A DNA stretch of 64,000 bases from Nibricoccus aquaticus (lineage in GTDB: Bacteria; Verrucomicrobiota; Verrucomicrobiia; Opitutales; Opitutaceae). Position numbers and translations under genes: made by a program. The notes under the pieces were generated by a model. It searched no databases, was not told the origin of the DNA, and saw nothing but the letters and a program-made list of their open reading frames with translations. Shown here in pieces: positions 3,761-6,168 of this stretch. Position 1 is the stretch's first letter. Each line of letters opens with the position of its first letter. The DNA lies in NCBI RefSeq assembly GCF_002310495.1, contig NZ_CP023344.1, positions 2,559,501-2,623,500 on the forward strand. Reading direction: 5' to 3'.

Positions 3761-4753
3761 TCAGGCGGCGAGTGAGACGGAGCGTGCTCGCGAGAGGGCG
3801 CGGGCGTGGACGAGTGGATCGATGTTCCGGCCGGTGAGCGGGACGACGACTTGCTTGCGGGCGAGTTCGGGGAGTTTTCCTGCGAGGCACGCTGCGAGAC
3901 CGGCGGCTCCGGCGCCTTCGACGACGGTGTTTTCAGTGTCGTGCAGATGGAGCACTGCGGCGGCGAGTTCGTCCTCGGTCACGGTGACGACACGGTCCAC
4001 GAGTTGTTGCGCGATGGCGAAGGTCGTGGCTCCGGTTTTGGCGACAGCTAGGCCGTCAGCGAGCGAGGTGCTGACGGGGACGCGGACGGGTTTGCCCGCG
4101 TGGAGTGCGACGGCGAGACCGGGTGCATGGGCGGGCTCGACGCCGATGACGAGCGCATCGGGGCGCAGGGCTTTCACTACGGTCGCGACACCGGCGAGGA
4201 GTCCGCCGCCGCCGACAGGAACGACAAAAGCGTCGGCATCCGGGAAGGCGAAGAGGGCTTCGAGCGCGAGGGTCGCCTGGCCGGCGATCACGGTGAGATC
4301 GTCGAAGGGATGGACGTAGGTCGCGCCGGTTTGTGTGGCGAGGTTTTCGGCGAAGGAGGCTGACTCGTCGTAGGTCGCGCCGTGCTGGAGGACGTGCGCG
4401 CCGAGCTGGCGGCAGCGGTCGGCTTTCACGCGTGGCGCGTTGAGCGGCATGACAACGGTAACGGAGATGCCGAGTTGCGCGCCGTGGTAGGCGAGGCCGA
4501 GCGCGTGGTTGCCGGCGGAGGCGGCGACGACACCGCGGGCGCGTTCGGAGGGAGAGAGCGAGAGGAGGGCGTTGCGCGCGCCGCGTTCTTTGAAGGAGCC
4601 GGTGGATTGTTGATAATCGTGTTTCAGAATAATGCCCATGCCCGCGAGTTCGCTGAGCGGTCGGGAGACCGCGCTGGGCGTGGCGCGCAAACCTCCGGCG
4701 ATGCGCGCGTGCGCCTGCCGGACGGTTTCTAGATTGAGGGCTTCAGGTTTCAT
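3761..4753 (-). CDS. ilvA: Threonine dehydratase (threonine ammonia-lyase), short form
   Basis: PLP enzyme converting threonine to 2-oxobutanoate and ammonia, the committed step to isoleucine. The PLP lysine is Lys55 in GSFKERGA (52-59), and the phosphate-binding loop GGGGLLAG is at 181-188. At 330 residues it has the catalytic domain only and lacks the C-terminal ACT-like regulatory domains of long biosynthetic IlvA, resembling catabolic TdcB. An Ile-rich leader peptide and terminator directly upstream (4772-4928) argue for a biosynthetic role with transcriptional rather than allosteric control. The start is the ATG at 4753, because the longer frame would read through the terminator. Confidence 0.9.
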   Translation of the reverse strand: MKPEALNLETVRQAHARIAGGLRATPSAVSRPLSELAGMGIILKHDYQQSTGSFKERGARNALLSLSPSERARGVVAASAGNHALGLAYHGAQLGISVTVVMPLNAPRVKADRCRQLGAHVLQHGATYDESASFAENLATQTGATYVHPFDDLTVIAGQATLALEALFAFPDADAFVVPVGGGGLLAGVATVVKALRPDALVIGVEPAHAPGLAVALHAGKPVRVPVSTSLADGLAVAKTGATTFAIAQQLVDRVVTVTEDELAAAVLHLHDTENTVVEGAGAAGLAACLAGKLPELARKQVVVPLTGRNIDPLVHARALSRARSVSLAA

Positions 4754-4771
4754 TGGGAAAATTTGGACAAC

Positions 4772-4799
4772 AAAAAGCCCCGGGCTTTGGGCCCGGGGC
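4772..4799 (-). terminator. Attenuator terminator in the ilvA leader
   Basis: In the minus-strand RNA a perfect stem GCCCCGGGC/GCCCGGGGC (4777-4799, loop CCAAA) is followed by five U residues (4772-4776). It lies 19 nt before the ilvA start codon and 40 nt after the leader-peptide stop. The 5' arm contains CCCGGG, which can also pair with GCCCGGGC inside the leader reading frame (4856-4863). Terminator and antiterminator would therefore be mutually exclusive. Confidence 0.85.
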
Positions 4800-4838
4800 G
4801 GATGGAAAGTGACGGTTGCGTGTGTGCTTGTGGTGCGG

Positions 4839-4928
4839 TTACGCGACGTCTCCATGCCCGGGCTGGCTGCGAATAATAATCATCATGCCGATGATCATGG
4901 CGCGGGCGATGTGGTTGAGGGACGTCAT
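4839..4928 (-). CDS. Isoleucine leader peptide of ilvA (29 residues)
   Basis: A 29-codon frame running ATG (4928) to TAA (4839) directly upstream of the terminator. Residues 11-19 read MIIGMMIII: five Ile codons and three Met codons in nine, ending in three consecutive ATT codons (4872-4880). It resembles known ilv leader peptides in having a short polar start, a run of branched-chain control codons and a Gly/Pro-containing tail. A ribosome stalled on the Ile codons would leave GCCCGGGC (4856-4863) free to pair with the terminator's 5' arm. Translation through to the stop would mask it. The mechanism is inferred; the peptide and hairpin are seen. Confidence 0.85.
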   Translation of the reverse strand: MTSLNHIARAMIIGMMIIIRSQPGHGDVA

Positions 4929-4971
4929 TACGAGGCGCAGAGGCAAAGCGAGCGCGCTGGGTTTGGCAAGA

Positions 4972-6168
4972 TCATCGTACGAACGAGAATCCGGCGCGGA
5001 TGGTGGAGGTTTTTAATTCGTAGGCGCGCAGGCTCTCGCCGTAGCCGTTGAAATATTGAATGAGGAAGTAGGTTTCGAAATCGAGCAGCCGGGTGCGCAC
5101 GGGGAGCGTGAGGTCGAGCTGCATGCTGGGGTGGTCGAATTCTTTGCCTGCCCAAAGAGTCGTCACGAGCGAGAGACCTTCGTTTTTGCCAAGGATCAGA
5201 CGGAGTTGTCCGTAGCCGCGGTAGTCTTTTAGTTCGGGATTATCCTCGAGCGAAGTGAGGTAGGTGAAAACTTCGGGAACGACCAGCATGTGCCAGCCAT
5301 CGAGATTTCCCAGCGCGAGGGCGGTTCGCAGATAAGCGGTGTTGAGGCTGCGCGAGTCGAAGCCTTCGCGGCCGTTGGATTCATGTTTGAGCGCGACTTG
5401 ATATCCGAGCCAGGTGAGGCCTGTTCCTGTTTTTGCCGTGGCGGGGGCGAGCGATTCAAAGATGAGTTCGGGCATGTAGCTCGTGTCGTAGAAGGGACTC
5501 GAATCGGCGCTCATGTCCCAGAGCGAGCGTTGAGTGTAGGCGAACTGAAGCGTCGCGGGAACGATCTTCGAGGTGACTTGGCCGAGGTTCAACAGGCGGT
5601 ACTTGAAGCTGAATTGGAATTTCCCGACGGGATCGTCGGGGCCGTAGATAAAATAAATGGGTTCATGAACGCCCAGGCGTCCGGCGAAAGTGCGCAGCAG
5701 CGATGTGGCTGCTGGACGAGCGGCGATCAGGCTGGTGAGGGACTGGCTGGAAGACGTGGAGCCGGGGTTGCTGGCTGCGGATGGGTTGATGTCGAGAACG
5801 GCGTGCAACGGAGAGCCCGTGATGCCGGTTACTTCCAGGATGACGCGGCCCTGGAGATCTTTGGGAACGGTGAAGATGTAGGTGCGAACGCCGAAACCAC
5901 CTGCGGCGATGAGTTCGGAGGGTGCTTCTTCGGCGCGCAGGGAAAGCGTCCAAGAGCGCGTATCCAGTATCAGGGTGCCGCCGATAGTCGGTGGAGCTTC
6001 AAACACGGCTTCGGTGGTCAGCGGGTTGAGCGCGACGAGATCGATGCGGACCTCGGAGCCCGGAGCGACGGCGGAGGAGGGAGGGAGTAAATTGAAGATC
6101 GGTGCCGCCAGGGCAGTCGCGGCGGCGCCGATCAGTGCGAAAGTGAAAGCGATGAAGCGGTGCATCAT
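4972..6168 (-). CDS. pldA: Outer-membrane phospholipase A (OMPLA/PldA family)
   Basis: Calcium-dependent phospholipase of the outer membrane. The catalytic triad aligns with the E. coli spacing (142/144/156) as His262, Ser264 and Asn276 in KHESNG...SRSLN. FAYTQRSLW (209-217) and SSPF...Y.PEL also match. The start ATG at 6168 gives a signal peptide (residues 1-22, ending ALAAP); a GTG at 6198 is an alternative. Residues 30-130 form an extra beta-rich, Ig-like N-terminal region absent from the E. coli enzyme. It follows the TonB receptor gene by 67 nt on the same strand. Confidence 0.88.
   Translation of the reverse strand: MMHRFIAFTFALIGAAATALAAPIFNLLPPSSAVAPGSEVRIDLVALNPLTTEAVFEAPPTIGGTLILDTRSWTLSLRAEEAPSELIAAGGFGVRTYIFTVPKDLQGRVILEVTGITGSPLHAVLDINPSAASNPGSTSSSQSLTSLIAARPAATSLLRTFAGRLGVHEPIYFIYGPDDPVGKFQFSFKYRLLNLGQVTSKIVPATLQFAYTQRSLWDMSADSSPFYDTSYMPELIFESLAPATAKTGTGLTWLGYQVALKHESNGREGFDSRSLNTAYLRTALALGNLDGWHMLVVPEVFTYLTSLEDNPELKDYRGYGQLRLILGKNEGLSLVTTLWAGKEFDHPSMQLDLTLPVRTRLLDFETYFLIQYFNGYGESLRAYELKTSTIRAGFSFVR

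Follow-up and report, generated by a model that had tools for sequence, protein, structure and literature searches.

A predicted isoleucine-sensing attenuator ahead of a stand-alone ilvA gene, and a related leader ahead of cimA, in Opitutaceae

The ilvA gene of Nibricoccus aquaticus codes for a short threonine dehydratase and is preceded by a small, isoleucine-rich open reading frame and a terminator-like hairpin. This arrangement raises the question of whether charged tRNA-Ile is sensed at ilvA by a ribosome-mediated transcription attenuator, and whether such an attenuator replaces allosteric feedback, as suggested in an initial annotation of the locus. The gene was studied within a 64-kb stretch of DNA (hereafter, the window) and compared with loci of related genomes.

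Organization and folding of the ilvA leader

The elements of the locus, in the order in which they would be transcribed, are the following:

4964..4969, minus strand: TTGCCA, possible −35 element of a putative leader promoter (alignment, by eye)
4839..4928, minus strand: leader frame coding for the 29-aa peptide MTSLNHIARAMIIGMMIIIRSQPGHGDVA (sequence reading; 24 leaders compared, own included)
4899..4907, minus strand: segment 1, GCCCGCGCC, pairing with segment 2 in the 1:2 fold (folding)
4872..4898, minus strand: control codons ATG ATC ATC GGC ATG ATG ATT ATT ATT (sequence; spacing comparison)
4851..4863, minus strand: segment 2, GCCCGGGC (4863-4856) followed by AUGGA, 5' strand of the antiterminator, within the leader frame
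4791..4799, minus strand: segment 3, GCCCCGGGC, common to antiterminator and terminator
4777..4785, minus strand: segment 4, GCCCGGGGC, 3' arm of the terminator
4772..4776, minus strand: U-run TTTTT, predicted termination point
3761..4753, minus strand: ilvA, short threonine dehydratase, 330 aa, PALP domain only (Pfam)

The leader frame (4928-4839) consists of 29 codons plus TAA and begins 43 nt past the stop codon of a phospholipase-A-like gene that is transcribed in the same direction and ends at 4972. The control stretch MIIGMMIII was read at 4898-4872 as first described, its closing ATT ATT ATT codons occupying 4880-4872, and 12 nt separate the start of the last Ile codon from the CCCGGGC of segment 2. 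The terminator, GCCCCGGGC-CCAAA-GCCCGGGGC (4799-4777), is a 9-bp GC stem followed by TTTTT, and the U-run ends (4772) 18 nt before the ilvA start. The frame had been described as ending just before this terminator; the frame itself was confirmed, but it does not directly adjoin the hairpin, its stop codon lying 39 nt ahead of the terminator arm and about 85 nt ahead of the ilvA start. In an alignment inspected by eye, GACA hexamers were found near the −35 column in 15 of 21 rows, CTTGC in five and TTTACA in one; no −10 box or Shine-Dalgarno sequence stood out convincingly.

The window contains 418 short frames of 15-45 codons, and three of them sit 10-100 nt 5' of a strong terminator (11 such terminators were found by scan). 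Only the ilvA leader among these three is Ile-rich (six Ile) with a 7-nt complement to the terminator 5' arm, the other two having 2 and 0 Ile and a 4-nt complement each. Rfam gave no match at gathering level anywhere in the window, T-box and amino-acid leaders included; seven sub-threshold matches between 4700 and 5100 (six sRNAs and one snoRNA model) look like chance and were discarded.

Folding of the leader yielded two alternative structures. The antiterminator consists of GCCCGGGCAUGGA paired to UCCAU..GCCCCGGGC, with a GACG/CGUC stem enclosed between them, and segments 2 and 3 alone reached −29.2 kcal/mol (z −4.0; none of 200 shuffles as good). Folding of the whole leader favoured the 1:2 plus 3:4 combination (z −3.2). 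The proposed pairing of GCCCGGGC with the terminator 5' arm was recovered, and the antiterminator is longer than had been claimed.

Comparison of ilvA leaders within the family

Orthologues of the short-form ilvA were collected first from 57 and then from 252 genomes of the family, N. aquaticus included, and 21 of their leaders were aligned. An Ile-rich frame followed by a terminator was present ahead of all 26 short-form ilvA genes identified with readable upstream DNA (own, 20 relatives, G142, G020, G260 and the divergent G012 and G266), a count from which L037 was left out for having too little upstream sequence. These 26 come from the stronger IlvA matches, and the weaker ones may include more short forms, whether preceded by a leader or not. 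The conservation of Ile-rich frames and hairpins anticipated in the initial annotation was thus found, and orthologous leaders lacking the frame or its Ile codons were sought among these 26 regions without any being encountered. R1, a covariance model built from the 21 ilvA leaders only, matched those of G012 (E 4.4e-5) and G266 (E 4.5e-8).

In a tree of IlvA, 23 attenuated short forms grouped in one clade (99/97), joined by L037, whose upstream region is unreadable; L046 was dropped because of an internal stop, and L077 and L263 are not in the tree. Two sub-clades were distinguished, one with leaders of the CCCGGGC type and the other with leaders of the TCAGGGC type plus the divergent G012. 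Three of the 26 genes look damaged: that of G139 has an internal stop, that of G020 lies in two pieces in different frames, and that of G260 is also affected. The last one (L078, G260:C42) codes for a short IlvA that is divergent and occupies a long branch, TGSSRERG replacing TGSFKERG at the position of the PLP lysine, and its leader has drifted to Leu/Val codons. The G134 frame is 415 aa long, and its extra C-terminus has no resemblance to ACT. An apparently decayed ilvA leader was also observed in L084 (G025:C115:11153-11291), with a frame running beyond the usual stop and a broken terminator arm; the frame read after this copy contained no ilvA.

A total of 24 ilvA leaders were modelled (the 21 aligned ones plus those of G142, G020 and G260). 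The 3:4 pairing appeared in 24 of 24 full folds as a terminator-like hairpin with a U-run, the 2:3 pairing in 24 of 24 nascent folds (begun 12 nt past the last Ile codon), and the 1:2 protector pairing in 22. Terminators of the 21 aligned leaders ranged from −18.7 to −21.6 kcal/mol and antiterminators from −20.7 to −31.0 kcal/mol, the latter with z values of −1.7 to −5.0; since z is −1.7 in two leaders, the significance of the antiterminator is unequal among them. Leaders of G012 and G266 have a third arm sequence, CCCACGGCC, and no clean long 2:3 helix (−15.8 and −18.7 kcal/mol).

Within the 21 aligned leaders, all 189 cells of the 3:4 helix hold standard pairs, two of the nine pairs varying on both sides, and in the 2:3 helix 142 of 147 cells do so (96.6%), one of the seven pairs varying on both sides; seven of the nine terminator pairs and four of the seven antiterminator pairs never vary. 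In this register, the five rows of the CCCGGGC type (own included) have C opposite C at one 2:3 pair; shifting by one base restores seven pairs. The percentage paired and the covariation score exceeded all 500 shuffles for both helices, which relatedness alone can bring about. As many pairs changing on both sides were obtained in 335 and 390 of 500 shuffles, and for the measures of both-sided change and further pair types shuffles were as good in 335-500 of 500. The both-sided changes follow one split between the two leader types and may represent a single event.

Measured from the first base of the final Ile codon, the distance to segment 2 is exactly 12 nt in 22 of 24 ilvA leaders; the same spacing was found in 17 of 24 leaders measured ahead of the citramalate synthase gene cimA (see below; segment 2 of a further one, L156, was not located). 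A ribosome occludes about 12 nt beyond its A site, so that one stalled on the last Ile codon would stop just short of segment 2. Each ilvA leader codes for two to six Ile, amounting to 17.8% of residues in the 24 leaders versus 4.1% in four genes of the window. Leader Ile codons are mainly ATT (80 ATT and 25 ATC, n=105) versus 12 ATT and 61 ATC (ATT 12/74) in those four window genes, which constitute the whole codon background. Codon bias in attenuator leaders has been discussed (PMC1183508).

Leaders ahead of citramalate synthase

With an E threshold of 0.01, R1 had matches in at least 152 of the 252 genomes of the family, many of the weak ones being bare terminators. Outside the ilvA set, 56 matches were taken, namely the full-length listed ones to E 6.4e-6 plus G208. 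Forty of them sit 14-134 nt 5' of a match to the TIGR00977 citramalate synthase model on the same strand, and nine more precede a frame with the CimA start IYDTTLRDG (G061, G073, G059, G145, G130, G071, G149, G182 and G208). The attenuator was consequently located directly ahead of cimA in at least 49 genomes by R1, and in at least 51 when adding G066 and G067, identified by reading; most copies of the attenuator found precede cimA, not ilvA. The CimA of one attenuated gene (L098) scored 690.7 bits against TIGR00977 (cut-off 450). CimA condenses pyruvate and acetyl-CoA to citramalate, which leads to 2-oxobutyrate without threonine dehydratase, and the presence of the same element ahead of cimA in relatives makes it look like a family-wide isoleucine control element.

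Statistics on cimA leaders were calculated from 25 of 29 fetched sequences (L094, L102, L157 and L159 were excluded, their model start being out of frame). The 3:4 pairing was found in 23 of the 25, the 2:3 pairing in 24 nascent folds and the 1:2 pairing in nine. Two ilvA leaders of the CCCGGGC type (L001 and L005) shared 70-80% identical aligned bases with seven cimA leaders, L001 and L098 being alike at 114 of 142 aligned bases; each of these ilvA-cimA pairs scored above all 200 shuffles, which favours common descent over convergence.

The other seven of the 56 matches belong to G188, G189, G172, G213, G231, G025 and G029, the last one at a contig end; in G213, G231 and G025 the match precedes other frames. 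In G213 (L155, G213:C6:2081723-2081863), the leader MKQNTATTIIMMTKANSPWAGGTRRND and a terminator were observed, followed by a 122-aa frame that matches no Pfam family. A leader and terminator were likewise seen ahead of a lone small protein (91-110 aa in the frames read) in G188 (L104/L153), G189 (L103), G178 (L167) and G261 (L169). By eye, this protein resembles the small subunit of acetolactate synthase (IlvN/ACT-like); that of G188, the only one scanned, gave no Pfam or NCBIfam match.

No genome, among the matches listed, carries a full R1 match at both ilvA and cimA. For 15 genomes with an ilvA attenuator (own, 13 relatives and G012), the region of about 450-470 nt upstream of cimA was read, and none of the 15 contained a terminator with an Ile frame or an R1 match; the same procedure did detect the cimA attenuators of G066 and G067. 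The overlap expected between 24 and 51 genomes out of 252 is 4.9, and the probability of finding none is 0.0033, a value that treats related genomes as independent and uses hand-made counts of 24 and 51. Genera g67 and g6 hold both arrangements, indicating that the switch occurs within genera too. Elsewhere in the N. aquaticus genome, no R1 element was detected 5' of ilvB, leuA, cimA or the gene for an ACT-type IlvA, and there was one weak match 3' of ilvB (L087, 17.1 bits). An order-wide R1 search (273 genomes, E up to 1e-4) gave matches in nine genomes of other families; the five that were read (L256, L257, L258, L259 and L261) were terminators without an Ile-rich frame or isoleucine gene, and they were rejected. 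Among the matches listed for 80 contigs with an IlvA relative (R1 E up to 0.1) were L174, which corresponds in position to G117, and, weakly, L247 (14.9 bits).

Proposed mechanism, alternatives and relation to known systems

The anatomy of the leader and its conservation, corresponding changes in segments 2, 3 and 4, an almost invariable spacing and a location before isoleucine-entry genes are the sequence features that led us to propose that ilvA is very probably controlled by a ribosome-mediated transcription attenuator sensing charged tRNA-Ile (probability about 0.9). The leader would thereby govern the formation of 2-oxobutyrate, the step by which isoleucine synthesis is entered. RNA polymerase would transcribe the leader with a ribosome trailing on the 29-codon frame. 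When Ile-tRNA is plentiful, the ribosome would reach the stop codon, located within the potential antiterminator. Segment 2 would then be unable to hold segment 3, the 3:4 terminator would form and transcription would end before ilvA. Since a ribosome at the stop codon would only partly cover segment 2, termination would depend on steric block or on timing. When Ile-tRNA is scarce, the ribosome would stall on the Ile codons, its front edge would reach roughly the start of segment 2 and 1:2 would open, and formation of 2:3 would allow transcription of ilvA. The leader promoter, the coupling, the stalling and the termination in the cell are all inferred. The switch between 2:3 and 3:4 set by Ile codons before a stand-alone ilvA, as originally put forward, is strongly supported by the sequence comparison.

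Three other readings of the locus were considered. The hairpin might serve the upstream phospholipase gene as a constitutive terminator, the Ile-rich frame being a chance ORF: that gene ends at 4972 on the same strand, and such terminators are common. However, an Ile-rich frame with a terminator recurs at ilvA in 26 of 26 readable regions and at cimA in at least 51 other genomes, and the 18 nt between the U-run and the ilvA start leave no room for a promoter. On the basis of this conservation and of the frame count in the window, the chance-ORF reading was rejected as extremely improbable. The leader could instead act mainly at translation, by reinitiation or through an effect of the hairpin on the ilvA ribosome site, with little premature termination. 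The start of ilvA 18 nt past the U-run, with no Shine-Dalgarno sequence evident by eye, would fit this possibility, and a general proposal of reinitiation at leader genes exists (PMC4833913). Against it stand the terminator-like hairpin with a U-run in the 24 folded leaders, the distance of about 85 nt between leader stop and gene start in N. aquaticus, and the fact that the conserved feature is the spacing from Ile codon to segment 2, all of which make a mainly translational role very unlikely.

The third reading, in which the ilvA version of the leader senses methionine, and perhaps valine, besides isoleucine, we regard as doubtful. Internal Met (the last three residues excluded) occurs in 20 of 24 ilvA leaders versus one of 25 cimA leaders, and the stretches MMIM and MMMIIII are found in G012 and G266, respectively; but four of the 24 have no internal Met, and AUG could represent extra start codons or a neutral hydrophobic choice. 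Since the ilvA leaders are of one ancestry, the contrast with cimA may be one event. Met and Val make up 7.0% and 8.1% of residues in the 24 ilvA leaders versus 1.4% each in the 25 cimA leaders.

As regards allosteric control, the controlled gene does code for a 330-residue IlvA whose Pfam match is PALP only, without a C-terminal ACT domain, as originally described. Four matches to this IlvA were found in the N. aquaticus genome, itself included; the second is a 416-aa IlvA (L002) in which an ACT domain was found and whose gene has no leader upstream. R1 matches at E up to 1 were absent from all 63 distinct ACT-type (ilvA_1Cterm-like) loci (62 identified by BLAST match to the ACT region of L002, plus L023, with ACT in another frame; L266 repeats L051, and L272 has only 131 nt upstream). 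The suggestion that attenuation replaces allosteric feedback is in line with an attenuator on the ACT-less form and with its absence from these 63 loci; it is not supported in general, given the ACT-type IlvA of the same genome and two further cases. The allosteric LeuA_dimer domain is present both in the attenuated CimA of L098, the only attenuated one scanned, and in the unattenuated CimA of N. aquaticus (L090). In G172 (L154, G172:C47:2510-2644), the leader MRTASARLLATTTIIISPIPG and a terminator (R1 E 1.9e-8; nascent 2:3 fold −15.9 kcal/mol) precede the gene for a 512-aa IlvA matching TIGR01124, ilvA_2Cterm (800.8 bits, cut-off 411.3), a subfamily different from that of the window IlvA and a model that by its name has C-terminal regulatory domains. 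The retention of LeuA_dimer in L098, together with G172, indicates that presence of the attenuator does not depend on the enzyme having lost allosteric control.

Proteobacteria and Actinobacteria are the groups in which leader-peptide attenuators are best known, and the ilv leaders of Escherichia coli serve large operons and contain Ile, Val and Leu control codons. The leaders described here are like those of ilvGMEDA and ilvBN of E. coli and Salmonella in that branched-chain biosynthesis would be attenuated through a leader peptide. They differ in preceding a lone ilvA or cimA instead of a large operon, in having Ile (plus Met) control codons, not Ile/Val/Leu, and in that the leader frame includes segment 2 and has its stop codon in the antiterminator. 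Attenuation of the E. coli and Salmonella operons is stated in PMC1183508. The ilvBNC operon of Corynebacterium glutamicum (PMC11857589) is likewise a branched-chain operon with leader attenuation outside Proteobacteria, in which phylum, target genes and sequence all differ from those reported here.

Closer to N. aquaticus, genus g59 (L152, L162, L168 and L171) has a related leader with Ile/Val/Leu codons before a branched-chain operon (LIIAVVILLTPSTGRLSHN in L152), found weakly by R1 (E 3.5e-5 to 2.7e-4). The first and fourth genes of the L152 operon are ilvD and ilvC (NCBIfam), and ilvB, ilvN and leuA were recognized by eye. This leader belongs to the same family of genomes and has a layout similar to that of the ilvA leader, from which it differs in its mixed codons, its whole operon and its other segment sequences. 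Upstream of a LeuA-like gene of N. aquaticus (L089), a frame MRHIAQALRLT with Leu codons is followed by a hairpin and TTTTT, a possible leucine attenuator. The ilvA attenuator had been presumed to be little described, and in agreement with this the open-licence literature yielded no paper that deals, by its title or the opening of its abstract, with attenuators in Opitutaceae or with one at cimA, an earlier report in subscription literature being possible; the accessible part of PMC4833913 does not mention Verrucomicrob, Opitut or ilvA.

Taken as a whole, these leaders form a sequence-supported set of attenuators across a verrucomicrobial family, and the 12-nt spacing from codon to hairpin suggests a ribosome footprint. 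We lean towards the view that one homologous Ile attenuator moved between the non-homologous ilvA and cimA, which serve the same pathway step, and was kept on one of them per genome, so that regulation would follow the step and not the gene; on ilvA it perhaps gained Met codons, as a link to the threonine/methionine branch. Since the element guards either route, and never both among the matches listed, it would, if this view is correct, provide a natural test of the reassignment of a regulatory RNA between unrelated enzymes. The position of the attenuator may also mark the route, from threonine or from pyruvate through citramalate, on which each genome relies for isoleucine.
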